A stretch of 64,000 nt of DNA. It comes from Chitinophaga pinensis (GTDB lineage Bacteria > Bacteroidota > Bacteroidia > NS11-12g > UBA955). Position numbers and translations under genes: made by a program. The notes below the pieces were generated by a model, which was not told where the DNA came from, searched no databases, and was given only the letters and a program-made list of their open reading frames with translations. Location: positions 186,001-250,000 of the forward strand of contig CAMBXL010000001.1 in the NCBI GenBank assembly GCA_945871905.1. Reading direction: 5' to 3'. Positions 79-16,999 of the stretch are shown here, in pieces; within the stretch, counting starts at the first letter, position 1, and every line of letters starts with the position of its first letter.

Positions 79-1956
79 ATGAAAAAAAATTACAAATTTA
101 AAATGTTTAAAGTCAGTTTGATGTATCAAATTGCTTTCTTAACACTGCTTTTTTCAAGCATTGGTTTACACGCTCAAAAAAATCCAATTGATTTTGAAAC
201 AGGCGGTAATGGCGCAACTTGGACGTGGACTGTCTTTGAAAACAGTTCAAACCCAGCTGTTGAAATTGTTACTAACCCGAATCAATCGGGGATTAATACA
301 TCTTCTAAAGTTATGAAATTTAAAGCTTTACAAGCTGGAAATCCTTGGGCAGGTTGTGAATCAAAGCATGGTTCAACAGATTTAGATACTTTTTCTTGGA
401 ATTCAAATAACCGTATCATTAAGATTATGGTATGGAAATCTGAAATTAGTGATGTAGCAATCAAAATTGCTTCAAGCACAAATTGGTCGGAGACAGAAGT
501 TAAAATTCCTAATACAAAAATTAATGAATGGGAAGAATTGACTTTTGATTTTACTAATAAAATTAATCCTCCTTCAGGAAATGGTGTTTTAGACCAAATT
601 ATTATTTTCCCTGATTTTCAAACAAGAACTAGCGATAATATCTGCTATATAGACAATATTACATTTAATGCAGGAACAGCATCTGAACCAACTACGGCTG
701 CCCCAACACCTACACAAGCATCTGCTGATGTAATTTCAATGTTTAGTAATGCTTATACTAACAAAACGGTTAATACATGGAGAACTGATTGGTCGGCAGC
801 AACTCTTTCTGATGTTAAAGTAGCAGGCAATGATACCAAAAAATACTCTTCATTGGATTATGTAGGAATTGAAACTGTTGGAGCAAATGTGATCGACATT
901 AAGGATATGCTATACTTCCATATTGATGTTTGGACTCCCAATGTTAATTCTATGAGTGTGAAAATTGTTGATTTTGGTGCTGATGGTAATTTTGGTGGAG
1001 GAGATGATAAAGAACATCAAGTTACTTTAACTCCTACAAAAAACGGTTGGAATAGTTTTGATGTGCCTATGTCTGATTTTACTGGATTAACTTCTAAACA
1101 ACATATTGCACAATTAATTTTTAGTTGTACTCCTGCCGGTCAAGGAACTTTATATTTGGATAATATTTTTTATCACAAATCGCCAATTATCGACCCTAAT
1201 ACTCCACAGGAGGCTGCTCCAACACCAGTATTTGTGGGAACGGATGTGATTTCATTGTTTAGTAATGCTTACACCAATAAAACGGTTAATACTTGGCGCA
1301 CAGATTGGTCTCAAGCAACTTTATCTGATTTGCAAATCAAAGGTAATGATACTAAGAAATATACTTCATTAAATTTTTCAGGAATTGAAACTGTTGGTGC
1401 AAACGTTATTGATGCTTCTAGCATGGATAGATTTTATTTCAATGCTTGGACGCCTAATTTAACTTCACTTAAAGTGAAATTAGTTGATTTTGGTGCTGAT
1501 GGCGCATTTGGTGGAAGTGATGATAAAGAACATGAACTTACATTGACTGCTCCAACCTTAAACAGTTGGAATACATACGATTTGCCTTTGTCTAGTTTTA
1601 CTGGATTGACAACCAAAGCACACATTGCTCAATTGATCTTAGTAGGAACTCCATCAAATGCTGGAACTGTATTTATTGACAACGTTTTGTATAGAAAAGA
1701 AGCACTTTCTGTGTCTAATACTACTTTAAATACTATCAATGTTTATCCAAACCCAGCGACAGAACAAGTTACTTTATCTTCAACTAATACAATTGCTTCA
1801 GTTGAATTATTCAATAGCCTAGGTCAAAAAGTTTTAAACTTAAATTCTGATTCAAATATCGTGACAATCGATATTGCTAATCTTAACAAAGGTATATATA
1901 CTATAAAAACAAACACCGACAATGGACAATCTGTTTCTAAACTGATTGTAGAGTAG
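79..1956 (+). CDS. T9SS-secreted surface glycan-binding protein with duplicated beta-sandwich modules
   Basis: This 625-residue protein starts with a signal peptide ending near the alanine-glutamine at about residue 33. A beta-sandwich, carbohydrate-binding-like region covers about residues 34-200. Two nearly identical modules of roughly 155 residues follow (about 215-370 and 387-540, spaced 172 codons apart), each with an 'SNAYTNKTVNTWRTDWS' block and ending in an 'LDNIFYHK'-like strand. Residues of about 550-625 form a type A T9SS sorting domain (YPNP motif, then 'GIYTIK'), so the protein should be secreted and anchored at the cell surface. A related module occurs at the end of the lipoprotein at 8357. 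No catalytic motif is visible. The glucanase genes nearby suggest that it binds beta-1,3-glucan; the ligand is inferred, the secretion route is well supported. Confidence 0.8.
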   Translation: MKKNYKFKMFKVSLMYQIAFLTLLFSSIGLHAQKNPIDFETGGNGATWTWTVFENSSNPAVEIVTNPNQSGINTSSKVMKFKALQAGNPWAGCESKHGSTDLDTFSWNSNNRIIKIMVWKSEISDVAIKIASSTNWSETEVKIPNTKINEWEELTFDFTNKINPPSGNGVLDQIIIFPDFQTRTSDNICYIDNITFNAGTASEPTTAAPTPTQASADVISMFSNAYTNKTVNTWRTDWSAATLSDVKVAGNDTKKYSSLDYVGIETVGANVIDIKDMLYFHIDVWTPNVNSMSVKIVDFGADGNFGGGDDKEHQVTLTPTKNGWNSFDVPMSDFTGLTSKQHIAQLIFSCTPAGQGTLYLDNIFYHKSPIIDPNTPQEAAPTPVFVGTDVISLFSNAYTNKTVNTWRTDWSQATLSDLQIKGNDTKKYTSLNFSGIETVGANVIDASSMDRFYFNAWTPNLTSLKVKLVDFGADGAFGGSDDKEHELTLTAPTLNSWNTYDLPLSSFTGLTTKAHIAQLILVGTPSNAGTVFIDNVLYRKEALSVSNTTLNTINVYPNPATEQVTLSSTNTIASVELFNSLGQKVLNLNSDSNIVTIDIANLNKGIYTIKTNTDNGQSVSKLIVE

Positions 1957-2075: not shown

Positions 2076-5000
2076 TTATTCTTTGTTGTCGTTGCTTTGG
2101 AAATTGATCAAAAACTCAAATAAATCTTGGTGAGTCTCTAATTTTAATTTTTTCCTTAAACGGTACCTGCTTATTTCAACCCCTCTAACAGATATGCTAA
2201 ACAGTTGGGCCATTTCTTTGCTAGATAAATTCATTCTTAAATAAGCGCAAAGCTTTAATTCTTTGGAGTTTAAATCTGGATATGCCTTTTTTAAATTATT
2301 TAAAAAATCACTTTGAACGTTTTTTACATGATCTGTAAACTTATCCCATTCCTCATCTAGTTTCTCATCCGATTTTATTTGACGTAATATTTTTCTAATT
2401 TCACTCGCCTCCACTTGGTCTTTGTTCTGTAAAACTAAGTTGTTTAAATGACTCGTTAGCTTGCCTAAAAAAGCTTTTTTCTGAAGTAAATTCATCGCAG
2501 TACTTGCCAAGTCATCACTCTTGTGCTTTATCTCCGCTTGAAGATTGTTATTGGTCAATTGCATTATCGCTTTTTCATTCTTTTCAAGCTCAAGCTGATG
2601 TTTATAACTGATTTGACGTTGCTCTTCCTCAAATTTAAGTTTAGTCTCGTGCATCCTAATTTGAGCTTTTTTCTGTAATTTCTTCTTCTGTAGTTTAAGT
2701 AATATATAAAATACAGAAACTGTGATTAATAGATAAAGCAAATAAGCCCAAATGTTTCTATACCAAGGGGCTTTAATTTCAAAACTGTATGAGAATTGCT
2801 TAAACTCGTTGGATGGTCCATGTCTTGATTTTAAGTAAAAAGTGTACTTCCCTTCTTTGAGATTTGTATAGTCTTTTTCAGATGTTGAACTCCAATTGCT
2901 CCATTTTTTATCATGACCATCCAATAGGTAACTAAATTCAATGTGTGATTTGTGTCGTAAAAATGAGCTTGCAAATGAAATTCGGATTGAATTTGATTTG
3001 TAGGGGATTGATGTTTTTAAATCGCTGTTTTTGAGTAGATTGTTGAATCCTCCGTAAATAACAGAATCACCACTTCCAAGTGTTTTTACTGAACTAATGT
3101 AGCTTACATAAGGGAATATTTGCTTCGAATACTTGTTGTAATTGATGTAGTAAAAGCCAATGTCTGAACCTATAATAGTGTTTTCGGAATCGTAACAGTA
3201 AATATTTTCAAAACCACTTAACACATGATTGAATAGTTCAGGAATGTATTTTACAACAGGTTGTGTTCCTCTAAAGTCCACTATACCCAACATTTTGTCT
3301 TGAACAAACCAAATATTGCCATTTAAGTCTTCTTTTAAATACCTTATTGGTATATTGCCCAATATACTTTGGTAGTATTTAGAAGGAATGATCTTGTTGC
3401 TTATTGGGTCTATTTCATAAATGCCTTTAGTCGTAGCAATTACAATGTTGTTTTTTATTTTAAAAACATGATTGTCTAATTCTGAGGGTAACCCATCTTT
3501 TACTGAGTATTTTTTAGTGCTATTGTCTGTTATATTGATTTTGTATAAACCATGATAAGGATGTGATACCCAAATAGATTTATTTTCTACCTCCATAAAG
3601 CGGCTTGATTCAATGAAGTTTCTGATAGAACCATCGTTTTTGAGTTCCCCCTTCTCTTTGCTAAAAAGTTGAATGCCAAAATAATTTCCGCATGCTATTT
3701 TAGGAGGATTACTCCCAATTATTGGTTTGAAGTTCCAAAAGCCTAAAGATTTGAAAATAGGGCTTGCTTTGTCGTTGTCAACTTTCCAAAATCCATCATC
3801 TCTGCTCACAATTAATTGATTTTCATAAGTATTGACATTCCAAGTTAAGCCATTCATTATAATTTTAGGTTTCAATGAAAGTAAACCTAATTCGTTTTTT
3901 TGTCTAATATCTATTGATTGTAATCCCGTCGACAATGCAAAATATAAATCTCCATTTAAACTAATCGCGCCATGCCCACTGCCGTTGTTAAATGAGTTGG
4001 GGTTTATATGGTAAATGGAATTCCCCCAATCAATAAGTGCAATGCTGTTGTCCATGCCTATCCAAGTGCATCCATCAAAACCACTGTAAAGGCAACGGAT
4101 TGTATTGCTTACTAATCCTTGTTTGGAAGAAATATTTCCCAGAATGTTCCCTTTTTTGTCTATTTTGTAAAGTCCTGAATTATAGGAGCCTAATAAAAAA
4201 TGATTGCCATTAAGGACCTCAATTGTTGTAAAATGGTCTTCGCTTATCAAGGCATTTATTTTAAATGGAAGTATCTGATTTTGGGTTAATAAGAACAGCC
4301 CATTGCCGGCGGTACTCACCAAGCAAGTGTCTTTTCCAAAGGGTTTAATATCAGTGATTTGAAATCCGTTAGGCAATAAACTTTGATTAATCAGAGGTTC
4401 CCATCTGCCATTGTTGTAGAGCAGTATCCCGCTTTTCTTATCTTGAGTTATGAGTTTATTGTGGTGTTTTTTTAGCGAAGTCCATGTTGTTTTCGGTTTA
4501 AAATAAGAAATACTGTTGTTGGAATATCTAAAAATAAACTGAGGGGTCATGAAAAAAACGTCTTGGTCAATTATTTCGATATTCCACACATCGGCAAATG
4601 AGCTAACAGATGGAGGTAGCTGTATTTTTAAAGAAGTAAATATGAATTTCCCGGATTTGTCGGATTTAAAATAGCCAAATTCGTTTTGAGCACCCACATA
4701 TAATCGACCATCATTGCTCATGGCAATAGATCTTACAATTGTTTTGTTAGGCACTGGATGCAATTCCCATTTTAAGCCATTGTATATCATAAGACCTTCG
4801 TTATTGGCAATAAACAATCTGCCCATATTATCTCTCTCAATATCCCAGTTTTGTGTGCCAGCAGAATATTCGGATTTTTTGATAATAGAAACCTTTGCAT
4901 TGTAAAGTTCCCCTTGTCCAACACTATTGAAAATGAAAAGTAAAAGATACAAACCCAAAAGTAGCCCTTTTTGAGAGTTGCATTTTTCTTTGCTTTTGTT

Positions 5001-5093
5001 GCAGTATTGTATTGTTTTTCTTATGTTAATAATGCAAAAATAACCAAATTTTTCAGTTTGATGTAGTAAAGTAGTAGTTTTTGTTGGTTGCAA
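2076..5093 (-). CDS. Membrane-bound triple-Y sensor regulator with LuxR-type HTH; start uncertain
   Basis: The open frame encodes about 1005 residues. A hydrophobic signal segment ('LYLLLFIF') is followed by a long periplasmic beta-propeller region (about 60-690, Reg_prop-like two-component-regulator propeller repeats), a triple-tyrosine (Y_Y_Y) domain (about 714-775), one transmembrane helix (about 778-800), a charged coiled coil (800-880) and a C-terminal LuxR/GerE-type helix-turn-helix (about 941-998). No histidine-kinase or receiver domain is present, so it looks like a one-component regulator that senses outside and binds DNA inside. Its place beside the glucanase genes suggests that it controls them in response to glucan oligosaccharides (inference). 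The frame opens with a TTG at 5093 and has no ATG before the signal peptide; an ATG at 4983 is out of frame by one base. The true start, or a frameshift in the A5 run at 4968-4972, is unresolved. Confidence 0.8.
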   Translation of the reverse strand: MQPTKTTTLLHQTEKFGYFCIINIRKTIQYCNKSKEKCNSQKGLLLGLYLLLFIFNSVGQGELYNAKVSIIKKSEYSAGTQNWDIERDNMGRLFIANNEGLMIYNGLKWELHPVPNKTIVRSIAMSNDGRLYVGAQNEFGYFKSDKSGKFIFTSLKIQLPPSVSSFADVWNIEIIDQDVFFMTPQFIFRYSNNSISYFKPKTTWTSLKKHHNKLITQDKKSGILLYNNGRWEPLINQSLLPNGFQITDIKPFGKDTCLVSTAGNGLFLLTQNQILPFKINALISEDHFTTIEVLNGNHFLLGSYNSGLYKIDKKGNILGNISSKQGLVSNTIRCLYSGFDGCTWIGMDNSIALIDWGNSIYHINPNSFNNGSGHGAISLNGDLYFALSTGLQSIDIRQKNELGLLSLKPKIIMNGLTWNVNTYENQLIVSRDDGFWKVDNDKASPIFKSLGFWNFKPIIGSNPPKIACGNYFGIQLFSKEKGELKNDGSIRNFIESSRFMEVENKSIWVSHPYHGLYKINITDNSTKKYSVKDGLPSELDNHVFKIKNNIVIATTKGIYEIDPISNKIIPSKYYQSILGNIPIRYLKEDLNGNIWFVQDKMLGIVDFRGTQPVVKYIPELFNHVLSGFENIYCYDSENTIIGSDIGFYYINYNKYSKQIFPYVSYISSVKTLGSGDSVIYGGFNNLLKNSDLKTSIPYKSNSIRISFASSFLRHKSHIEFSYLLDGHDKKWSNWSSTSEKDYTNLKEGKYTFYLKSRHGPSNEFKQFSYSFEIKAPWYRNIWAYLLYLLITVSVFYILLKLQKKKLQKKAQIRMHETKLKFEEEQRQISYKHQLELEKNEKAIMQLTNNNLQAEIKHKSDDLASTAMNLLQKKAFLGKLTSHLNNLVLQNKDQVEASEIRKILRQIKSDEKLDEEWDKFTDHVKNVQSDFLNNLKKAYPDLNSKELKLCAYLRMNLSSKEMAQLFSISVRGVEISRYRLRKKLKLETHQDLFEFLINFQSNDNKE
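5035..5042 (-). promoter_or_regulatory. Putative -7 element for the triple-Y regulator
   Basis: On the minus strand the sequence reads TATTTTTG, a perfect TAnnTTTG. I see no clear -33 TTTG at the usual distance. It would put the transcription start close to 5029, downstream of the TTG at 5093, which argues against that codon as the start of translation. Confidence 0.35.
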
Positions 5094-5180: not shown

Positions 5181-8100
5181 ATGCCCAATAAGAATATAGA
5201 AATGATTAAAAAAGTGCTAATCCAATTTTTTTTGTTATTAGCCCCAATGTTAGTATTTGCACAAAACGAAAAAGTTGAAGTAATTAAGTCGGAAAATGGA
5301 TTTAAACTTTCAGTCAATGGAAAAGACCTTTTCATAAATGGAATGAATTGGGATTATTCTCCAGTTGGGACTAATTACAATTACAGTTTGTGGAATCAGT
5401 CGGATGATTTGATTAAAGAAGCTTTGGACAATGAAATGTCCTATTTGAAAAATATGGGCGTTAATGCCATTCGACAATATTCAGGTGTTCCTGCCAAATG
5501 GGTGAAATACATTTATGAAAATTATGGAATTTACACCATGCTCAACCATTCTTTTGGTCGTTATGGTTTAAATATCAATGGAAATTGGGAAGCCAATACG
5601 GACTATTCTAATCCTGCCGTTAGAGAGGTTTTGCTGAAAGAAACCAAGGAAATGGTGTCACAATACAAAGAAACGCCAGGTATTTTGTTGTTTTTGTTAG
5701 GGAATGAAAACAATTATGGTCTTTTTTGGAGAGGTGCAGAAACAGAAAATATCCCATTTGCAGATAGAAAATCTACAAAAGATGCTTACTTTATGTATAA
5801 GCTTTTTAATGAAGCTGTTAAGGAATTAAAAACAATTGACAAAAATCATCCTATGGCCATTTGTAATGGTGATTTATTGTTTTCTGACATTATTGCAAAA
5901 GAGTGTACTGATGTCGATATTTTAGGAATAAATTGTTATAGAGGTCTTACTTTTACTGACCTGTATGAGCGCGTAAAAAATGAGTTAAATGTGCCTGTCA
6001 TTCTTACTGAGTTTGGTTCTGATGCTTACAATACTCGTTCAAATAGTGAAGACCAAGAGTTTCAAGCTCAAGTTCTATTAAGTAATTGGAAGGAAATATA
6101 TAACAATGCTGCTGGAATGGGAAAAAATAACAATAGTTTGGGTGGTTTTACTTTCCAGTTCAGTGATGGATGGTGGAAAACCGGTCAAACAATCAATTTG
6201 GATGAACACGATGTTACAGCTTCTTGGTCGAACGGTGGTTATGGTAACGATTATGTTCAAGGTGAAAATAATATGAATGAAGAATGGTTTGGCATTTGTG
6301 CAAAAGGCAAAACAAATGAACGTGGTTTGTATGAGTTATATCCAAGGGCTGCTTATTACGCACTCCAAAATATACACAAATTCAATCCTTATGTAGGGAA
6401 TTCTAATTCAATAAATACTTATTTTAATTCCATATCAATTGTGGAGGCTGCCTTAAAGGCAAGAGGAGACAAAGCCGTTTTAGAATCCAAAGACAAAGGG
6501 AAGTTGTATTTAAGTAATTTACAAGCCAATTTTAATACCTATCAAACGGGAGGAAGTTTAATAAAAACACCAACCACCTCCAATTCTTTAAATGCAAATA
6601 CATATCCCAATTTTCAAGGTTTTGACCACATACAATCTTTCAACGTTGGAATTACGGCAAGGCCTGCTCCTAATATGAAAGCGAACGTTCAGTTTAATGT
6701 GTTAGGAAATGTAGCTACCAATCCCATAGATGAAATATTCTATGAAAACAGAGGAAGGCCACTAACTATACAAACCCCTACTGGTCCTCAACAGATTAAC
6801 TCAAATAACAGGGTGCAATTGTATAAAGCAGATTACAGTTGGGATGCTAAGGATTTTAAACTAACCGGGTTTTATAGAACAGGTCATTACCATTGGGGAT
6901 ATGAAGGTGACTTTTTTGGATTATATCCTGAGGCCAATTATGGTCCTAACATTGATATATACAACGGCAATGCTCCTTTTGGTTTTGAAATAGAAGGCAA
7001 AAAAACTATTAAAGGGTTAAAGTTAGCTTTTGGTCCTGAATTATGGTGGGGAGCCAATCCAGCTTTCTTGTTAAAATACAGTCGAAAAATAGCAGGTTTA
7101 GATGTTACAGGTATTTTTCATGAGGATATTACTCAAAGAAATAATCTGCAAAGTTCATTTGCAGTTCCTGTGCCAAAAACCAGAAGATTAACTTTGGCTA
7201 TAGGTAAGAAAATGAATCATTTTACCTTCGATTTGGGCGGAATTTGGGGCGGACAGCCACTTAATGGAAGAACATTTCAAATGGTGTCTGAAAATGTAGT
7301 CTACGAAGATAAAATTCAAAGTACAGATAATTTTGGAGGTAAAGCAAAACTAACCTATTCCAAAGGGGCTATTCGTTGGTATGGTCTTGCATCATACATG
7401 GGTTTAGTGGCTAACGGAGGTATAGACCAAACCAAAACATTTACCGGTTGGGTTCTAAAGGATGTAGGAAGTGGAAATATGTACAATGCACTTACAGGTC
7501 TGACATACAATATTGGTAAAATTCAAATTGCACCCAATTTCTTATTTCAAAAACCATTAGTAGGTCCTATTGGCCCAACTTACATGGCACCCTCTCGCCC
7601 AAGAAATATTTTAGACGATCCTTTTTCAGTGAGAGGAAATAGAGAAACTGTAGGTGGTGAAATGTTGATTACGTATGATCCAACGCCTGCTACTTGGATG
7701 TATGAGTGGGATAATGACAGAATGGAAGATGCTAAATTTGCTTTTAGTTCAGGGTTTGTTTATAGGCATTTACCAACAGTTCAAGATGCCTCTATAGGTA
7801 TTTTAGGAAATGGTCGTACCACTTTTGTATTTCCGGGTTCTGCACCAGCGCAGGATCTTTGGGAACTAAACGCTAGAGTTGTTTCTAAAATTAATCCCGA
7901 ATTTGGAATTATTGGAAATCTGTATTTTGGAAATGGTCAAGCCAATGGAAACGATACCAGAACAATCAATAGATATGGCATGGATATTAGAACCATTTAT
8001 AAAAAAATGAAACTAATTACCATTGTTAAAATAGATGATTGGGGGCCTTTTGACTATCACCGAGATTTTAACCAAACGTTCCCGCTTCAACTGATAGCAG

Positions 8101-8324
8101 ATTGGTCAATAGAAGTTGGTAAACCTGATTGGTTCATGCTGCCAGGAACGAAACTTGGATTCAGAACAACTTACAGGACTTTAAATAAATACTCCAACCG
8201 ATATTCACCGATTACGACTTTAAATAATTTAGGTCAATTTGTCCCTGATCCTAATGCACTTGGTTTTCCTAATGGTAACGAATGGGAGCTAAGAACCTAC
8301 ATTCAAATCAATATTAATAATTAA
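5181..8324 (+). CDS. Clan GH-A glycoside hydrolase fused to a C-terminal outer-membrane beta-barrel
   Basis: This 1047-residue protein has a signal peptide; the start may be the ATG at 5202, which gives a more typical n-region. Residues of about 28-430 form a (beta/alpha)8 glycosidase domain of clan GH-A, resembling GH2-type TIM barrels or GH72/GH17-like glucanases. The likely acid/base is E176 in 'LGNENNYG' and the likely nucleophile is E277 in 'ILTEFGSD'. From about residue 480 to the end the sequence switches to alternating hydrophobic/polar strands rich in aromatic residues with Gly/Asn turns, ending in 'WELRTYIQIN'; this looks like an outer-membrane beta-barrel of some 550 residues. The combination suggests an enzyme tethered to its own pore at the outer membrane. 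The hydrolase part is fairly certain, the exact GH family is not, and the barrel is inferred from strand pattern. The gene leads a same-strand run of glucan genes. Confidence 0.75.
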   Translation: MPNKNIEMIKKVLIQFFLLLAPMLVFAQNEKVEVIKSENGFKLSVNGKDLFINGMNWDYSPVGTNYNYSLWNQSDDLIKEALDNEMSYLKNMGVNAIRQYSGVPAKWVKYIYENYGIYTMLNHSFGRYGLNINGNWEANTDYSNPAVREVLLKETKEMVSQYKETPGILLFLLGNENNYGLFWRGAETENIPFADRKSTKDAYFMYKLFNEAVKELKTIDKNHPMAICNGDLLFSDIIAKECTDVDILGINCYRGLTFTDLYERVKNELNVPVILTEFGSDAYNTRSNSEDQEFQAQVLLSNWKEIYNNAAGMGKNNNSLGGFTFQFSDGWWKTGQTINLDEHDVTASWSNGGYGNDYVQGENNMNEEWFGICAKGKTNERGLYELYPRAAYYALQNIHKFNPYVGNSNSINTYFNSISIVEAALKARGDKAVLESKDKGKLYLSNLQANFNTYQTGGSLIKTPTTSNSLNANTYPNFQGFDHIQSFNVGITARPAPNMKANVQFNVLGNVATNPIDEIFYENRGRPLTIQTPTGPQQINSNNRVQLYKADYSWDAKDFKLTGFYRTGHYHWGYEGDFFGLYPEANYGPNIDIYNGNAPFGFEIEGKKTIKGLKLAFGPELWWGANPAFLLKYSRKIAGLDVTGIFHEDITQRNNLQSSFAVPVPKTRRLTLAIGKKMNHFTFDLGGIWGGQPLNGRTFQMVSENVVYEDKIQSTDNFGGKAKLTYSKGAIRWYGLASYMGLVANGGIDQTKTFTGWVLKDVGSGNMYNALTGLTYNIGKIQIAPNFLFQKPLVGPIGPTYMAPSRPRNILDDPFSVRGNRETVGGEMLITYDPTPATWMYEWDNDRMEDAKFAFSSGFVYRHLPTVQDASIGILGNGRTTFVFPGSAPAQDLWELNARVVSKINPEFGIIGNLYFGNGQANGNDTRTINRYGMDIRTIYKKMKLITIVKIDDWGPFDYHRDFNQTFPLQLIADWSIEVGKPDWFMLPGTKLGFRTTYRTLNKYSNRYSPITTLNNLGQFVPDPNALGFPNGNEWELRTYIQININN

Positions 8325-8356: not shown

Positions 8357-9763
8357 ATGAAAATGATAAATAAGTTAAGTGTTCAAATAGGTTTTATCGC
8401 CCTATTTTTAATAGTTCAATTGGGGTGTAAACGCGAATTGTCAGAGGATGCTGTATTGCCTCAATTTAGCAACAATCCCTATGTTTTTACCGACAACTTT
8501 ATAGGGTTGGGTTCTGATTTTTATTTCCCATTTGCCGATGCTAAACCAGATGTTTTTTCGGTTGACTTAAAAGAGGGTTTCGAAAGCAATGCTTCTGTTA
8601 GAATAGATGTGCCCAATGAAACAGATCCCGGAGGAGCTTATGCAGGTGCAATTTTTAGGATAGATGGTGCTGGAAGAAATCTTAAGACTTATGATGCACT
8701 AACCTTTTATGTGAAAGCTTCTACAGGAACAAAATTAGGGGATGTCGGTTTTGGAATTGATTATTTTCAAGATAAAAACCAAGTGACTATCCAAAATGTA
8801 AACGTGGGTACCAATTGGTCTAAAGTTATTATTCCGATTCCCGACCCTTCTAAATTGGTAAATGAAAGAGGTGTTTTTTGGTTTGCGGCAGGGACTCAGG
8901 AAACAAATGGCGCTGGATATGTTCTATGGTTTGATGAAATTAAATTTGAAAAATTAGGCACTGTGGGTAAACCAACTTCTAGGATTTTAAATGGAGAAGT
9001 GAGCTCAATAAAGTCATTTGTGGGTGCGTCAATAACAGTTTCAGGTTTAAGTCATGTTTTTAATCTTACAAATGGTCAAGATGTTACAGTGATTTCTAAG
9101 CCCTCTTATTATAAATTTGCAAGTTCTAATTCCTCAGTGGCTACTGTTAATGATTCAGGAATTGTGAAAATATTAGCCACCGGAATTGCTGAAATAACAG
9201 CCAAGGTAAATGGGGTTTTAGCAAAAGGTAAATTGATAGTTGAGTCTAAAGGGAATTTGCCCGGCGCCCCAACACCGAACAGGCCAGCAATAGATGTTAA
9301 ATCTATTTTTAGTGATGCTTATGTCAATGCCACTGAGAGTAATTTTACGCCTGGTTTTGGCGGTTCTACCACAATTTTTGACCTATTGACAACAAGTAGC
9401 GGTAAGGTAGTGCAATACAGTAATAACAATTATACAGGAATAATTTTTGGAAATACAGTAGATGCTTCTGCGCTCGGTTTTTTACATATCGATGCTTATG
9501 TAGAGAATGCCTCATCGGTAATAGGAATTCAAATAAGAGACATAGGGGCAAACAAAACCATTGAAACCGATGTGTTTACAGGAAATCCAATAGGGGATGA
9601 CAAGGATAAAAGAATGAATTTGACTGGATTTGAAGCAGGTGTGTGGAAATCATTTGATATACCATTGAATGCAGGAATTATGAATCAAAAAAGTAATTTG
9701 GGTGCTATCATAATAACAGGAGGTCCCAATTTTATGTTAGACAATATCTATTTCTATAAATAA
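8357..9763 (+). CDS. Surface glycan-binding lipoprotein with BIG2-like domain
   Basis: The 468-residue product has a lipoprotein signal with cysteine 24 in 'VQLGC'. Residues of about 30-200 form a beta-sandwich region containing 'YVLWFDEIKFEK', typical of carbohydrate-binding folds. Residues of about 210-295 resemble a bacterial Ig-like group 2 domain ('SSVATVNDSGIVKI'). The C-terminal 155 residues are homologous to the duplicated modules of the T9SS protein at 79-1956 ('VKSIFSDAYVNATES', ending in 'LDNIYFYK'). It lies 32 bases after the glycosidase-barrel gene and 31 bases before the GH16 gene, so the three are probably cotranscribed. Its role is most likely that of a SusE/SusF-like glycan-binding protein that captures beta-glucan; the binding specificity is inferred from context. 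Confidence 0.75.
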   Translation: MKMINKLSVQIGFIALFLIVQLGCKRELSEDAVLPQFSNNPYVFTDNFIGLGSDFYFPFADAKPDVFSVDLKEGFESNASVRIDVPNETDPGGAYAGAIFRIDGAGRNLKTYDALTFYVKASTGTKLGDVGFGIDYFQDKNQVTIQNVNVGTNWSKVIIPIPDPSKLVNERGVFWFAAGTQETNGAGYVLWFDEIKFEKLGTVGKPTSRILNGEVSSIKSFVGASITVSGLSHVFNLTNGQDVTVISKPSYYKFASSNSSVATVNDSGIVKILATGIAEITAKVNGVLAKGKLIVESKGNLPGAPTPNRPAIDVKSIFSDAYVNATESNFTPGFGGSTTIFDLLTTSSGKVVQYSNNNYTGIIFGNTVDASALGFLHIDAYVENASSVIGIQIRDIGANKTIETDVFTGNPIGDDKDKRMNLTGFEAGVWKSFDIPLNAGIMNQKSNLGAIIITGGPNFMLDNIYFYK

Positions 9764-9794: not shown

Positions 9795-10610
9795 ATGAAT
9801 AAATCGAATAAATTAACACTTTTGGCAATTATAGCAATTTCTGTGGGAGGATGTAAGGTAGAACCTATTCAAAACTTACCTGATAGGAAGTATGAATTGG
9901 TTTGGAGTGATGAGTTTGAAGGGGATTCTGGCGTTAATCCTAATGCTTTAAAATGGACCTATGATATTGGCACAGGACAAAATGGGTGGGGAAATAATGA
10001 ACTTCAATCTTATACCAACAATCCCCAAAATGTATCTATAGATGGTACAGGTAATTTGGTTATTTCGGCTTTGAAAAGTAGTTCAGGAAACTACACCTCG
10101 GCAAGGATTAAAACAGAAGGTCTTTTTGCCCATCAGTTTGGAAGAATTGAAGCCCGTATTAAAACACCAACTGGTTCTGGAATATGGCCTGCATTTTGGA
10201 TGTTAGGAGCAGATTTTAAGGATGTTGGCTGGCCTCAGTGCGGAGAAATTGATATTATGGAACAAAAAGGCAAATTCTCTAACATCACTTATGGTTCAAT
10301 TCACGGTCCTGGATATGCTGGTGGTCAAGCCATTACTACGCCTTACGGACTGGAAGATAATAGGTTTGATGCCGATTTTAATGTTTATGCGGTTGAATGG
10401 GGCGAAAATTATATTGATTTTTTTGTCAATAATTTCCTTTACAAAAGAGTCACTCCCTCCGATGTTACAGGTGAGTGGGTGTTTAATAAACCTTTTTTTA
10501 TTATCCTGAATGTTGCGGTTGGTGGAAATTTTGTTGGTCCGCCCAATATCAATACCCCTTTCCCAAGTTCTATGTATATCGATTATGTTAAAGTTTACAA
10601 GGAAATATAG
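9795..10610 (+). CDS. GH16 endo-beta-1,3-glucanase (laminarinase) lipoprotein
   Basis: The 271-residue protein is a lipoprotein (cysteine 20 in 'SVGGC'). The rest is a single GH16 beta-jelly-roll domain. It carries the family active-site signature ExDxxE as 'GEIDIME': nucleophile E151, assisting D153 and acid/base E156. 'LVWSDEFEG' near the start and 'PFFIILNVAVGGN' near the end are typical of bacterial laminarinases, and the length matches a catalytic domain without extra binding modules. It would cut beta-1,3-glucan, or mixed-linkage glucan, at the cell surface into oligosaccharides for the other enzymes encoded here. It follows the glycan-binding lipoprotein by 31 bases. Confidence 0.92.
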   Translation: MNKSNKLTLLAIIAISVGGCKVEPIQNLPDRKYELVWSDEFEGDSGVNPNALKWTYDIGTGQNGWGNNELQSYTNNPQNVSIDGTGNLVISALKSSSGNYTSARIKTEGLFAHQFGRIEARIKTPTGSGIWPAFWMLGADFKDVGWPQCGEIDIMEQKGKFSNITYGSIHGPGYAGGQAITTPYGLEDNRFDADFNVYAVEWGENYIDFFVNNFLYKRVTPSDVTGEWVFNKPFFIILNVAVGGNFVGPPNINTPFPSSMYIDYVKVYKEI

Positions 10611-10749: not shown

Positions 10750-13700
10750 ATGTCAGGTCAAAAACAAAATAAAGAAGCTACTTTAGTAGAGATAAAAAGA
10801 TTGAAAATTGAAGGAGAAAACTTCTTTTGTATTTCTAATTATGATGAAATGCGGCCCTTTTTTATGAGTGTGGTAAGCGATTCGCACCATTGGATGTTTA
10901 TTTCAAGCAATGGTGGAATTTCTGCCGGTCGCAAGAATGCTGAATATGCTTTGTTTCCCTATTATACTGCGGATAAAATTACGGAATCCTATGATATAAC
11001 AGGCTCTAAATCCATTTTCAAAATTATTCAAAATGAAAAAATCCATGTTTGGGAACCTTTTTCTGAGAGGAATAATAGCTTGTTCAACGTTTCTAGGAAT
11101 CTGTATAAAAATGCCATTGGGAATAAAATTATTTTCGAAGAAATTAATCACACTTTTGAACTTACATTCAGGTATGAATGGAACTCAAGTGATCAATATG
11201 GTTTTGTTCGTAAATCTTCATTAGCAAACAATGGCAATCAAGCCTTAATAGTTGCTATATTAGATGGAATACAAAATATTATGCCTGACGGTGTCGGTGC
11301 TGATTTGCAAAACTCAACTAGTATTTTAGTAGATGCATACAAACGCAATGAACTTGATATTGAATCAGGTATGGGGATCTATGCACTCAGTGCAATAATC
11401 GTTGATAAGGCGGAACCAAGTGAAGCGCTCAAAGCAAATATTGCTTGGTCTATAGGCTTCGATAACCCCAAATACTTACTTTCTTCCCTCCAACTTAATG
11501 CGTTCAGAAGAGGGGAGGATCTAGTTCAAGAAGAGGATATTAAGGCAGAAAAAGGGGCTTACTTTATTAACCAAAAAATAACCTTAGCCACTGGTGAAAA
11601 GAAATCATGGTTAATCGTTGCTGATGTGAACCAAAGTCAAGCAAATGTAGTCGCATTGACGAATGAAATTATTTCAAAAAAGGAACTCAAAAAGCAAATT
11701 GAAAATGATATAGAATTAGGGTCTAAACGTTTGAAGGAACTGAATGCTTCTTCAGATGGCATTCAATTGTCTGATGATGTATACAGAGATACTCGACATT
11801 TTTCCAATACTCTTTTTAACATAATGAGAGGGGGGATTTTTGATTTTAATTATCAAATAGAAAAAAAAGACCTTGTCAATTATCTAGCAAATGCCAACAA
11901 AGAAGTTTATGAAACTCACAAGGATTTGTTGCAAAGTTTGGATAATGTTTTTAATGTTTTTCAATTGCAAGAAATATACAGTTCCATTAATGACAATAAC
12001 TTCAAACGACTTTGTGTAGAGTATTTGCCACTCAAGTTTAGCCGAAGACATGGAGATCCAAGCAGACCTTGGAATAAATTTTCTATCAATACTCGCAACG
12101 CGGATGACCATTCTAAGGTTTTGGATTACGAGGGGAATTGGAGAGATATTTTTCAGAATTGGGAAGCCTTATCCATCTCTTATCCTGCATTTACCAAAGG
12201 GATGATTCATAAGTTCTTGAACGCAACAACTTTCGAAGGCTATAATCCTTACAGGGTTACAAAGAGTGGATTTGATTGGGAGACTGTAGAGCCAGATAAT
12301 CCTTGGTCGTATATCGGTTATTGGGGAGATCATCAGATTATCTATTTACTCAAATTGTTGGAAATGAATGAGAAATACTATCCAGGTCAATTGAGTAGCC
12401 AATTCAGTGAAAACTTATTTGTTTATGCCAATGTCCCCTATAAAATTAAAAATTATCAGGAGATTTTAAGAAATGCGAAAGATACTATTGAATTTGACAA
12501 AGAGTTGGATGAGGAGATTAGAGAAAATCGTGATTTAATTGGTTCAGATGCAGCTTTGCTTTTTGCGCAAAATGATAAAATCTATAATGTCAATTTTATA
12601 GAAAAAATATTGGCCACAATTTTATCTAAACTTTCCAATTTTATTCCCGAAGGCGGTATTTGGATGAATACCCAAAGACCAGAATGGAACGATGCCAATA
12701 ATGCTTTGGTGGGAAATGGAGTTTCTATGGTAACATTATATTACCTCAGAAGGTTCCTTGAATTCTTCGAAAAACTAATTGAACAAACAACTGAAGAACG
12801 CATAGAATTGTCGAATGAGTTAATCATTTTCTTTAAAAAAATTCATGCCACATTCGAAGACAACTTAGCTTTGTTAAATTCAGGAATAAACGACAGTCAA
12901 CGTAAAGCAATTCTTGATAGCTTAGGACAAGCAGGTAGCGATTACCGTGAACATATTTATAAACATACTTTTTGGGGCGAAAAAAGAACTATTTCATACC
13001 GAAGACTTAAAAGTTTTGTTAAGGTAAGTCTTCAGTTTATTGAACATTCCATTAAGGCTAATAAGCGTGAGGATAACATGTATCACTCCTACAATTTAAT
13101 GACCCTGAAGAGCGAATACGAAATTTCAATCACCTATTTAAGTGAAATGCTTGAAGGTCAAGTAGCCGTTTTAAGCTCCGGTTATTTATCTCCTGAATGT
13201 GCCCTTAAATTATTGGATAGTATGAAAAATAGTGCCCTTTTTAGAGAAGATCAATACAGCTATTTGCTCTATCCCAATAAGCAACTACCAAAGTTTTTAG
13301 ATAAAAATAGAATTCCAAGTGAATTAGTTAAACAATCTCAGCTTCTTTCACTCATGCTTAATGACGGAAATAAATCAATTATAGAGCAAGATTTAAAAGG
13401 GGAATGTAGATTTAATGGGAATTTTAAGAATTCAAATGACTTGAGTAATGCTATTGATTTGTTAATTCATTCTACATATGCTTCATTTATTCAAAGTGAA
13501 AAGAAACTACTCTTAGAAATTTTCGAATCTGTATTTAATCACAAGTCATTTACTGGTCGCTCAGGCACTTTTTATGGATACGAAGGATTAGGTTCTATTT
13601 ATTGGCACATGGTTTCTAAGTTGCAATTAGCAGTCCAAGAAATGTGTATTCAAGCAATAGAAGTGCAAGAGAGTCCTGAACTTGTAGGGGGATTGTTGAA

Positions 13701-14202
13701 GCATTACTACGAAATTAATGAAGGTGTTGGCGTGCATAAATCGCCCTCCGTTTATGGGGCATTCCCAACCGACCCCTATTCGCATACTCCAAGTAATAAA
13801 GGGGCACAACAGCCCGGAATGACTGGTCAAGTAAAAGAAGATATTCTGAGTCGATTTGGGGAATTAGGCGTTTTAGTCTCTAAAGGGTGTTTGTGTTTTA
13901 ACCCTTGCTTGTTGCGAAAAAATGAATTTATAACTCAAAATCGACAATTTCATTACGTAACTGTTGACATGGAACACAAAACATTAATGCCTGAAATTGG
14001 GTCCTTGTGTTTTACGTTTTGCCAAATTCCTATTGTTTATAGATTGTCAAATGATAATTATCTTGAAATTGAAAAAAGAGATGGCACTGTTTTAAGGAAT
14101 AATTCATTGTGCTTAAATGAAGAAATAAGTAAGCAAATATTTAAAAGGACGGGTGCAGTTTCTAATATTACAGTATATATCAATGGGTCTATTCTGAAGT
14201 AA
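10750..14202 (+). CDS. Cytoplasmic beta-1,3-glucan phosphorylase-like protein (GH149/GH161/GH94 type)
   Basis: This 1150-residue protein has no signal peptide. The region around 'NWRDIFQNWEAL', 'YWGDHQIIY' and 'WMNTQRPEWNDANNALVG' is characteristic of the inverting glycoside phosphorylases related to cellobiose phosphorylase; by analogy with the GH94 'WNDGMN' motif, D648 is the probable general acid. The length is above that of GH94 enzymes (about 800) but fits GH149/GH161 beta-1,3-oligoglucan phosphorylases (about 1100). The reaction would be beta-1,3-oligoglucan plus phosphate to glucose-1-phosphate plus the shortened chain, saving one ATP per glucose. It lies between secreted glucanases and is followed after 4 bases by the GH17 gene, which supports a glucan substrate. 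The family choice within this group is inferred. A 139-base gap before it shows no clear promoter. Confidence 0.8.
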   Translation: MSGQKQNKEATLVEIKRLKIEGENFFCISNYDEMRPFFMSVVSDSHHWMFISSNGGISAGRKNAEYALFPYYTADKITESYDITGSKSIFKIIQNEKIHVWEPFSERNNSLFNVSRNLYKNAIGNKIIFEEINHTFELTFRYEWNSSDQYGFVRKSSLANNGNQALIVAILDGIQNIMPDGVGADLQNSTSILVDAYKRNELDIESGMGIYALSAIIVDKAEPSEALKANIAWSIGFDNPKYLLSSLQLNAFRRGEDLVQEEDIKAEKGAYFINQKITLATGEKKSWLIVADVNQSQANVVALTNEIISKKELKKQIENDIELGSKRLKELNASSDGIQLSDDVYRDTRHFSNTLFNIMRGGIFDFNYQIEKKDLVNYLANANKEVYETHKDLLQSLDNVFNVFQLQEIYSSINDNNFKRLCVEYLPLKFSRRHGDPSRPWNKFSINTRNADDHSKVLDYEGNWRDIFQNWEALSISYPAFTKGMIHKFLNATTFEGYNPYRVTKSGFDWETVEPDNPWSYIGYWGDHQIIYLLKLLEMNEKYYPGQLSSQFSENLFVYANVPYKIKNYQEILRNAKDTIEFDKELDEEIRENRDLIGSDAALLFAQNDKIYNVNFIEKILATILSKLSNFIPEGGIWMNTQRPEWNDANNALVGNGVSMVTLYYLRRFLEFFEKLIEQTTEERIELSNELIIFFKKIHATFEDNLALLNSGINDSQRKAILDSLGQAGSDYREHIYKHTFWGEKRTISYRRLKSFVKVSLQFIEHSIKANKREDNMYHSYNLMTLKSEYEISITYLSEMLEGQVAVLSSGYLSPECALKLLDSMKNSALFREDQYSYLLYPNKQLPKFLDKNRIPSELVKQSQLLSLMLNDGNKSIIEQDLKGECRFNGNFKNSNDLSNAIDLLIHSTYASFIQSEKKLLLEIFESVFNHKSFTGRSGTFYGYEGLGSIYWHMVSKLQLAVQEMCIQAIEVQESPELVGGLLKHYYEINEGVGVHKSPSVYGAFPTDPYSHTPSNKGAQQPGMTGQVKEDILSRFGELGVLVSKGCLCFNPCLLRKNEFITQNRQFHYVTVDMEHKTLMPEIGSLCFTFCQIPIVYRLSNDNYLEIEKRDGTVLRNNSLCLNEEISKQIFKRTGAVSNITVYINGSILK

Positions 14203-14206
14203 TAGG

Positions 14207-15487
14207 ATGTTTAAGTTCAGTCAATTATATCGTCTTTTGTGCATACTTTCGGTTGTTCTAATTGCCTGCAATAATCATAATTCAGTAAAAGGGAATAATG
14301 GGAATAACCCCCTTAGTAAAACTGCTATTCAAATTTTAGGAGATACGAATTACCAAGCAATTTGCTATGGTGGGTATAGAAAAAACACCCGAGATTCACA
14401 GCCTACTTTATCTCAAATAACAGAGGATATGCGGATTTTGAATGCAATGGGAATTAAATTGCTGCGAACCTATAACACCCATTACAAGGAAATAGAAACG
14501 ATATTGCAGGCTATCGCACAGTTGCGTTCGGAAAATTCGAATTTTGAAATGTATGTAATGCTAGGAGTTTGGATTGAATGTGAAAATGCATGGACAGAAA
14601 AAGAATCTAATCATGACAAGGAAAATGAGAAAGCTAATGCCGCAGAGATAAAAAAAGCGGTAGAATTGGCCAATCAATATCCTGACATAGTTAAAATGAT
14701 AGCGGTTGGAAATGAAGCAATGGTAAAGTGGGCAACTAATTACTATGTTCAACCTAGTGTGGTTTATAAATGGGTGAATTATCTTCAATTGTTGAAGCAA
14801 AAAAAACAGTTAGACAGGGATTTATGGATTACATCTTCAGATAATTTCGCATCATGGGGTGGTGGCGATTCTTCATATCATGTCGAAGATTTAAAAAAAC
14901 TTTATCAGGCCGTTGATTTCATTTCTATTCATACTTATCCAATGCATGACACCTATTATAATCCTAGTTTCTGGGGAACATTACCAAAAGAAAATCATTT
15001 GACAAAAGAAGTTCAAATAGACTCTTTGATGAAAAGAACATTGAATTATGCCAAAAGGCAATATCTTGGAGTTTATAAGTATATGAAATCCATTGGCGTA
15101 AATAAACCAATACATATAGGAGAAACGGGTTGGTCAACCAATTCTAATGATCTATATGGAAGCAATGGCACAATGGCATGTGATGAATATAAATCGGCTA
15201 AATATTATCAACTCATTCGTGAATGGACCAATAAAGAAAAAATGACTTGTTTCTATTTTGAAGCATTTGATGAAAATTGGAAAGATGCTAATAATACTGC
15301 CGGTTCCGAAAATCATTTTGGGTTGTTTACGGTCAATGGAAATGCCAAATATGCACTTTGGAATATGGTTGATAAAGGCATTTTTAAGGGTTTAACAAGA
15401 GATGGAAACTTAATTGAAAAAACATACAAAGGGAATAAAGAAGCATTGTTGGAAATAGTAGAACTTCCCGCCAAATTAAAACAATAA
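14207..15487 (+). CDS. GH17 beta-1,3-glucan hydrolase/transglycosylase lipoprotein
   Basis: This 426-residue lipoprotein (cysteine 21 in 'VVLIAC') has a GH17-type TIM barrel. 'GIKLLRTYNTHY' marks an early strand, 'AVGNEAMVKW' holds the acid/base E170 and 'IGETGWSTN' holds the nucleophile E306; 'YFEAFDENWK' is also typical of the family. GH17 enzymes cleave or elongate beta-1,3-glucan chains. The protein should sit on the outer membrane and trim laminarin fragments released by GH16. It begins 4 bases after the phosphorylase gene and ends 3 bases before the GH30 gene, so translation of the three is probably linked. Hydrolase and transglycosylase activity cannot be told apart from sequence alone. 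Confidence 0.88.
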   Translation: MFKFSQLYRLLCILSVVLIACNNHNSVKGNNGNNPLSKTAIQILGDTNYQAICYGGYRKNTRDSQPTLSQITEDMRILNAMGIKLLRTYNTHYKEIETILQAIAQLRSENSNFEMYVMLGVWIECENAWTEKESNHDKENEKANAAEIKKAVELANQYPDIVKMIAVGNEAMVKWATNYYVQPSVVYKWVNYLQLLKQKKQLDRDLWITSSDNFASWGGGDSSYHVEDLKKLYQAVDFISIHTYPMHDTYYNPSFWGTLPKENHLTKEVQIDSLMKRTLNYAKRQYLGVYKYMKSIGVNKPIHIGETGWSTNSNDLYGSNGTMACDEYKSAKYYQLIREWTNKEKMTCFYFEAFDENWKDANNTAGSENHFGLFTVNGNAKYALWNMVDKGIFKGLTRDGNLIEKTYKGNKEALLEIVELPAKLKQ

Positions 15488-15490
15488 TAA

Positions 15491-16999
15491 ATGAATATTT
15501 TGCCAAACATATCATTCTTTAACAAGTTTTTGCTTGTCATTGCTTGTATGGCTTTTGTTCAGTGCACAAATGAAAATATGAAAATTGAAGTTTATGAAAC
15601 CTCCAAAAGCGGAAATGCACTAACCCTGATTTCTGATTTTAAAACAGCTGAAAAAGTAGTAAATATGACAATTGACCCAGAGGTGACCTTCCAAACTATA
15701 GTTGGATTTGGTGGTTCATTTACCGAAGCCTCAGCCTCACTGCTCAACCAATTAAGTAAAGAAAAAAGAGAAGAAATATTACAAGCCTATTTTGGGGATA
15801 ATGGCGCTAAATATTCGTTAAGCAGAACACACATGGCATCCTGCGATTTTTCAAAGTCTAATTACACTTATGCCAAGCTTGAAAACGATTTAGATTTGAA
15901 AGGTTTTACAATTGAAGATGATGTTGATGATTTAATCCCAATGATATTGGAGGCTAAAAAAATATCGAAAGAAGGGTTTAAAATTATTGCTTCGCCATGG
16001 ACTGCACCACCTTGGATGAAAGACAATAATCACTATGTGGGTGGGAAATTATTGCCTCAGTATTACGATGTGTTTGCCTTGTATTTCTCTAAGTACTTGG
16101 AGGCTTATAAAGGGAAAGGAATTGATATTTGGGGGCTTACTGCCATTAATGAACCCCATGGGAATGGAAGTAATTGGGAAAGCACCCATTTTACGCCTAA
16201 AGAAATGACAGATTTTGTTGAAAATCATTTGGGTCCCAAGCTTGAAAAAGATGGTTGGGGCGATGTTAAGATTTTAGGTTATGACCAAAATAGAGCTGGA
16301 ATAAAAGAATGGGTGGATGAGATGTTCAGAAGTGATAAATCTTCGAAATATTTTGCAGGAACAGCTTTTCATTGGTATGAGAGTACTTATGAGGTTTTTC
16401 CAGAAGCCTTGTCTTATGCGCACCATAAAGCCCCCAATAAATTACTGATAGAAACCGAAGGTTGTGTGGATTCAGAAGTGCCCAAATGGCGCAATGATCA
16501 ATGGTATTGGGAAATGGAGGCAACGGATTGGGGTTGGGATTGGGCGAGTGAAAAAGACAAATACTTGCATCCTAAATATGCGCCTGTCAACAGGTATGCC
16601 ATAGATATTATAGGGTGTTTAAATAATTATGTGAATGGTTGGGTGGATTGGAATATGGTGTTAAACAAACAAGGTGGTCCCAATTGGTTCAAAAATTGGT
16701 GCGTAGCCCCCGTTATAGTTGATGCCGAAAAAGATGAAGTTTATTACACTCCCTTGTATTATGTAATGACACATTTTAGTAGATTTATGAGGCCGGGCGC
16801 TTTGAAAATTAAATGTGATATTGATCAAAAGTATCTTCATGCAACTGCTGTAAAAAATCCAGATGGAACTATTGCTGTTGCTGTGTTTAATCCAATCAAT
16901 GAAGCAGTTACTGTTAAATTAAAACTAAATAACCAATTCCAAACATGGACCATAAATCCCCATGCCATTCAAACAATACTTATAAATAATCATAAATAG
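15491..16999 (+). CDS. GH30 beta-glucosidase/beta-1,6-glucanase lipoprotein
   Basis: The 502-residue product has a lipoprotein signal (probable cysteine 25 in 'AFVQC') and a GH30 fold. Diagnostic blocks are 'GFGGSFTEASAS', 'ASPWTAPPWMK', the acid/base E221 in 'AINEPHG' and the nucleophile E323 in 'ETEGCVDS', which aligns with the 'SEACVG' block of human glucocerebrosidase. The C-terminal part is the beta-sandwich usual in GH30. In this locus the best fit is removal of beta-1,6-linked glucose branches from laminarin, complementing GH16 and GH17; a plain beta-glucosidase remains possible. It starts 3 bases after the GH17 gene, and the transporter gene follows after 21 bases. Confidence 0.88.
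   Translation: MNILPNISFFNKFLLVIACMAFVQCTNENMKIEVYETSKSGNALTLISDFKTAEKVVNMTIDPEVTFQTIVGFGGSFTEASASLLNQLSKEKREEILQAYFGDNGAKYSLSRTHMASCDFSKSNYTYAKLENDLDLKGFTIEDDVDDLIPMILEAKKISKEGFKIIASPWTAPPWMKDNNHYVGGKLLPQYYDVFALYFSKYLEAYKGKGIDIWGLTAINEPHGNGSNWESTHFTPKEMTDFVENHLGPKLEKDGWGDVKILGYDQNRAGIKEWVDEMFRSDKSSKYFAGTAFHWYESTYEVFPEALSYAHHKAPNKLLIETEGCVDSEVPKWRNDQWYWEMEATDWGWDWASEKDKYLHPKYAPVNRYAIDIIGCLNNYVNGWVDWNMVLNKQGGPNWFKNWCVAPVIVDAEKDEVYYTPLYYVMTHFSRFMRPGALKIKCDIDQKYLHATAVKNPDGTIAVAVFNPINEAVTVKLKLNNQFQTWTINPHAIQTILINNHK

Follow-up and report, generated by a model that had tools for sequence, protein, structure and literature searches.

The window analysed here is a stretch of 64,000 nucleotides from a Bacteroidota assembly (contig CAMBXL010000001.1, positions 186,001 to 250,000). 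At 5181–8324 of its forward strand lies a single intact frame of 1047 codons, read without interruption, that encodes a glycoside hydrolase (GH) joined to a predicted outer-membrane barrel. The true translation start may be M8 at 5202, seven codons after the listed start, because homologues begin MKK. A Sec signal peptide, SPI-like in sequence, occupies 5181–5261 (ending ...LAPMLVFA before a Q); homologues share its ...AQ cleavage region, and a lipobox is absent from 112 of 114 fused proteins. It is followed on the same strand by a clan GH-A catalytic TIM barrel (residues 29–405, 5265–6395), two linker helices leading from enzyme to barrel (residues 408–437, 6402–6491; assigned by DSSP from AlphaFold2 models and partly of low confidence) and a predicted outer-membrane beta-barrel of ~24 strands (residues 442–1046, 6504–8318). 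A preliminary description of this DNA had given the same layout, with the enzyme as the N-terminal third and a barrel of roughly 550 residues; the measured proportions are 39% and ~605 residues. A start/stop or frameshift artefact joining two genes, which that description had left as a way to be wrong, is ruled out by 83 full-length fused homologue frames.

The next gene after the fusion (8357–9763, forward) encodes a CBM-like lipoprotein (LGC-KRELS) predicted to be surface-exposed. Downstream of it, all on the forward strand, are a GH16 lipoprotein beta-glucanase (9795–10610; GGC-KVEPI; Pfam Glyco_hydro_16, 3.8e-20), predicted to be surface-exposed from its acidic +2 to +6 signal, a cytoplasmic GH149 1,3-beta-D-glucan phosphorylase of 1150 residues with no signal (10750–14202; NCBIfam equivalog NF058639, 1767 bits against a cutoff of 1150), a GH17 lipoprotein predicted to be periplasmic from its non-acidic tail (14207–15487; IAC-NNHNS; Pfam GH17, 1.7e-6), a lipoprotein-like GH30, by family of the beta-1,6-glucan debranching type (15491–16999; Pfam, 4.5e-75), and an inner-membrane sugar transporter of MFS/GPH type (17021–18583; Pfam MFS_2, 3.2e-60). 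A divergent Y_Y_Y/propeller sensor regulator with a LuxR-like HTH lies on the reverse strand (2076–5093), its start probably downstream of the listed TTG. At 79–1956 (forward) a T9SS-secreted protein (Por_Secre_tail) carries two similar CBM-like repeats; such a protein is a neighbour in many related loci, and it probably binds glucan after secretion as part of this system. The operon as a whole is a laminarin-type (beta-1,3-glucan) cluster, and its gene set agrees with published laminarin clusters (PMC5827456, PMC13188888, PMC6246565). Fusion loci elsewhere also have GH16 downstream and, in most, GH149, GH17, GH30 and MFS genes, while adjacency of the Y_Y_Y regulator is not constant.

The only Pfam match of the enzyme half is to the GH2 TIM-barrel model Glyco_hydro_2_C, just over threshold (25.9 bits, cut-off 21). 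This sole match and the lack of N-terminal jelly-roll/Ig-like domains argue against GH2 membership; in the AlphaFold2 model the mature protein begins directly at the TIM barrel. Fold searches with VIA-align gave GH158, GH5 and GH2 TIM barrels as best (Z ~26), Foldseek ranked GH158 endo-beta-1,3-glucanases first, and the best PDB sequence relative is a GH158 laminarinase, a weak match (E 1.6e-4; 3e-4 by profile). The TIM barrel shows the clan GH-A pattern of an acid/base after Asn on strand 4 and a nucleophile on strand 7, here E176 (5706–5708, forward) and E277 (6009–6011, forward), with N175–E176 and E277 unchanged in 83 of 83 aligned sequences. The fold match and the invariance of both glutamates bear out the clan and the catalytic residues originally proposed. 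In BuGH158 the catalytic N136, E137 and E220 are each required for activity (PMC7157763), and by the clan GH-A pattern N175, E176 and E277 probably correspond to them. We read the enzyme half as a predicted clan GH-A glucanase near GH158, its family not being settled.

For the barrel half, AlphaFold2 was run twice, on the whole protein (mean pLDDT 75.5) and on residues 406–1047 with a 105-sequence alignment (pLDDT 78.6, pTM 0.75). Both models, of medium confidence, agree on ~24 antiparallel strands at matching positions. Strand amphipathicity averages 3.58, compared with 2.16 ± 0.23 for 1000 within-strand shuffles, none of which exceeded 2.97. Short and long turns alternate throughout, with inner turns of 2–10 residues (one exception, of 20) and outer loops of 9–36, and the C-terminal strand is ELRTYIQININ. 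The prediction thereby shows the features of a porin-like barrel, namely an even number of antiparallel, amphipathic strands, short inner and long outer turns and an aromatic C-terminal strand. Outer loops rich in conserved aromatic and acidic residues lie at 6876–6977 (residues 566–599), 7035–7061 (619–627) and 8040–8078 (954–966) on the forward strand, with conservation of 0.94–0.96. The sole long inner turn, residues 833–852 (7677–7736), reads DPTPATWMYEWDNDRMEDAK; it is rich in Trp, Tyr and Asp, has a conservation of 0.87 and, facing the GH side in the models, might serve in docking or gating.

All matches listed by a structure search of the barrel were beta-barrel membrane proteins. The 24-strand ushers PapC and FimD align over residues 35–642 of 642 (Z 13–14, 350–365 aligned), and this full-length match to closed 24-strand barrels suggests that the barrel closes; AlgE, OccK-type channels, chitoporin and maltoporin match parts of it. 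Foldseek TM-scores against any one known barrel are low (~0.25–0.43), pointing to an outer-membrane barrel for which no close solved relative was found here. Profile searches of both halves, suggested at the outset, gave a family model for the enzyme, while the barrel has no Pfam, NCBIfam or meaningful PDB sequence relative. Its assignment, originally made from strand pattern, now has the backing of two predicted models, an amphipathicity above that of every shuffle and structural matches to membrane barrels. The two models and the structure search alike rule out beta-sandwich accessory domains, the other outcome that had been named as fatal to the idea. The protein matches neither a Pfam plug or TonB receptor nor NCBIfam SusC (TIGR04056), which sets it apart from SusC and other TonB-dependent transporters.

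Several observations bear on which side of the membrane the enzyme occupies. If the short turns face inward and the long loops outward, strand 1 is predicted to start (residue 442) on the inner side. The N-terminal domain of ushers is periplasmic, and the collinear usher match places the GH domain where that domain sits. In Bacteroidota, surface lipoproteins are marked by an acidic signal at positions +2 to +6 (PMC5080379). The mean number of acidic residues at these positions is 1.75 in the CBM partner, 1.84 in GH16, 2.0 in SusD and 2.67 in SGBP; it is low in GH17 (0.46) and in the detected relatives that consist of the GH half alone (0.75, n = 4). The automatic lipobox pattern missed several of these GH-only lipoproteins that are visible by eye, so their count is low, and tails read by eye (CNSST, CAKKS, CAQHK, CAQQK, CAPMK) likewise lack the acidic signal. 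A periplasmic location of the fused enzyme is thus well supported by strand parity, the usher match and the GH-only lipoprotein signals. Such a location implies import first and cutting afterwards, opposite to the cut-then-import order first envisaged; on the predicted topology, work at the surface would fall to GH16 and the CBM lipoprotein.

Both halves are kept in at least 80 relatives across the Bacteroidota, at 55–83% identity. Full-length relatives occur in Flavobacterium, Chryseobacterium, Cloacibacterium, Halpernia, Saprospiraceae, Chitinophagaceae, Bacteroidales MAGs and Kapaibacterium/Chlorobi MAGs. The barrel was found in ~9–10% of the phylum genomes sampled (34 of 395 by single-sequence search and 30 of 296 by profile search, the two samples overlapping), and neither search found a barrel-only relative in those genomes. 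Apart from full-length fusions, the searches returned only three other cases: G493 has a broken gene, G464 a gene split between contigs and G387 a stub. In the first of these (L251, G493:C53) stop codons break the fused gene and leave the GH and barrel parts in separate frames.

The survey of homologues proposed earlier therefore shows a widely kept fusion, but not an invariable one, as the GH half also occurs alone. Fifteen GH-only loci were collected, and in five of them SusC/SusD lies within the stretch available. Most GH-only proteins have a lipobox in place of the barrel. One homologous operon from the same order (sister locus L111, genome G063) encodes SusC, SusD, a surface-type lipoprotein, GH16, a GH-only lipoprotein, GH149, GH3, GH17, GH30 and MFS, and a barrel search of that genome found nothing. 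Three distant GH-only relatives (L206, L208 and L210; ~30% identity, frames of 335–354 residues) lie beside GH149/GH17/MFS genes, do not match a simple pattern for the usual GNEN motif and form a separate subfamily. A quick, midpoint-rooted tree of the GH domain requires at least five or six changes of the fusion label; the fused clade contains several GH-only sequences, while distant GH-only groups and one near group branch elsewhere. Direct evidence for loss of the barrel in place comes from L192 (G387:C314), where a 47-residue remnant of the barrel start (~3489–3626) lies directly downstream of a GH-only ORF.

The statement that a SusC/SusD pair is absent from the window, and with it a polysaccharide utilization locus as defined by that pair, was confirmed. 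The genome as a whole (2.5 Mb, 99.7% complete) likewise has no SusC above the curated cutoff and no SusD; six weaker TonB-receptor-like matches indicate that other TonB receptors are present. Among 48 genomes tested, SusD is absent genome-wide in ten that have the fusion, the present one included (G000, G685, G679, G648, G645, G464, G409, G333, G345 and G511), and many fusion genomes carry SusD elsewhere. Where at least 5 kb upstream and 3 kb downstream were available, 76 of 81 loci had no SusC/SusD near the fusion and five did. The expectation that fusion loci lack SusC/SusD thus holds as a rule but is not absolute, and the five exceptions lead us to reject a strict version. An exchange of the barrel with SusC/SusD is suggestive and not statistically proven: with progressively looser demands on the flanks, Fisher tests gave p values of 0.096, 0.022 and 0.002, and phylogenetically independent pairs, only five in number, give no support.

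The association with the CBM-like lipoprotein is tighter. It is the next same-strand gene in 108 of 108 fusion loci where both were found, is absent from the GH-only loci (0 of 15) and follows the fusion label in five of five independent pairs (p 0.0625). The barrel and this lipoprotein therefore form an obligate, SusC/SusD-like pairing, and the fusion is not the self-contained protein that was first suggested.

We consider it probable that the fusion imports laminarin-type beta-1,3-glucan fragments across the outer membrane and carries its own enzyme for them. At the surface, the CBM partner and GH16 lipoproteins would capture and endo-cleave the glucan, and the fragments would pass through the large ~24-strand barrel with its conserved aromatic/acidic outer loops. 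The GH158-like domain, which precedes the barrel in the chain and would lie in the periplasm, would cut fragments as they emerge, and cutting at the pore exit would render entry effectively one-way without SusC/SusD. GH17 and GH30 would complete degradation in the periplasm, after which the MFS carrier would import short oligomers for phosphorolysis by GH149 in the cytosol. Computation supports the fusion and its barrel, the make-up of the operon, the lack of SusD and of any SusC above cutoff, and the obligate CBM pairing; transport, its direction, the ratchet action of hydrolysis and the substrate range are what we infer. A counterpoint is the large size expected of an unplugged 24-strand pore. 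More tentatively, and with less than even confidence, we suggest that this represents a mode of SusC/SusD- and TonB-independent glycan import widespread in Bacteroidota, with periplasmic hydrolysis as the ratchet and the CBM lipoprotein as a SusD-like partner.

The barrel could instead be a mere membrane anchor for a periplasmic laminarinase, with fragments entering through other channels. The lipobox that the GH domain usually bears where the barrel is missing would make membrane tethering a shared need, and five loci do hold SusC/SusD as well. However, a barrel of 605 residues, outer loops conserved at 0.94–0.96 and an obligate surface CBM partner exceed what an anchor needs, and fusion genomes without SusD would still require a route for glucan, so that we regard a pure anchor as unlikely. 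Less probable again is a surface enzyme of the autotransporter (type Va) kind, in which the barrel serves for secretion and the GH domain passes through it to the cell exterior, as happens with the esterase EstA. EstA-type enzymes do share the N-terminal enzyme and C-terminal outer-membrane barrel, the helical linker (408–437) adds to the resemblance, and surface display would suit the cut-then-import order mentioned above. Yet EstA-type proteins have a 12-strand barrel and an exported passenger, whereas here no Pfam autotransporter domain is matched, ~24 strands rather than about 12 are predicted and the enzyme is predicted to be periplasmic; an inward position is indicated by turn parity and by the signals of GH-only lipoproteins, and the strong outer-loop conservation is unexpected for a pure secretion pore. 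That the barrel exports or senses rather than imports, for example as a sensor feeding the divergent regulator, is very improbable, for although some of the best structural matches are to the exporter AlgE and to pilus ushers, and a Y_Y_Y regulator adjoins, the operon is wholly catabolic, with a cytosolic phosphorylase and MFS uptake, and the regulator is not adjacent in every locus.

An importer carrying its own enzyme has a counterpart in FbGH17b of Formosa, which likewise unites a transporter and a glycoside hydrolase in one polypeptide of a Bacteroidota laminarin system (PMC6246565). FbGH17b was proposed to couple hydrolysis and uptake, and its authors knew of no other bacterial transporter–CAZyme fusion (PMC6246565). 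It consists of an inner-membrane MFS with a C-terminal GH17, whereas the present protein combines an outer-membrane barrel with an N-terminal GH158-like domain. Fused MFS–GH17 ORFs of ~780–800 residues also occur in five of the loci collected here (L083:17607–20009, L062:19032–21410, L109:19953–22358, L080:20505–22868 and L192:8617–10965); in four of these, each of the two membranes thus has its own transporter–hydrolase fusion, and L192 has lost the outer one.

The 1,3GUL of Bacteroides uniformis, one of the SusC/SusD laminarin PULs with GH158, resembles the present system in its substrate logic, with surface GH16, glycan-binding lipoproteins, an outer-membrane transporter and a GH158-type laminarinase, but it relies on a TonB-dependent SusC and its SusD, and BuGH158, a lipoprotein in its own right, is expected on the cell surface (PMC7157763). 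The barrel described here matches neither a plug nor SusC and is joined to its enzyme. PapC/FimD ushers and the AlgE, ChiP and LamB channels are alike in barrel architecture, but no sequence relation to them was found, usher domains are absent and the gene context differs. Closest in gene content are the SusCD-less GH149 CAZyme clusters (PMC5827456) and clusters of Muricauda (PMC13188888), with a LuxR-type regulator, GH2-like, GH16, GH149, GH17, GH30 and MFS genes. In the accessible portions of these reports the glycosidase half alone is named, if at all, and no barrel is mentioned; the 'GH2' gene of Muricauda may well be this fusion. The gene is surely in databases already, probably named 'GH2' or 'glycosidase'. 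A literature search, with most subscription journals outside its scope, found no earlier description of an outer-membrane barrel–glycoside hydrolase fusion.

Glycan uptake by Bacteroidota is understood almost wholly through SusC/SusD. Where the pair is missing, clusters go under the name 'CAZyme clusters' and no entry route is given; the conserved fusion with its binding lipoprotein is a candidate for that route. Recognition and annotation of such laminarin clusters would change, as the gene tends to carry the name of its glycosidase half only. The fusion also offers a single-polypeptide model for the coupling of hydrolysis to outer-membrane transport. Because laminarin is a major ocean carbon store, an overlooked importer would bear on carbon-cycling surveys that use SusC/SusD as a marker.
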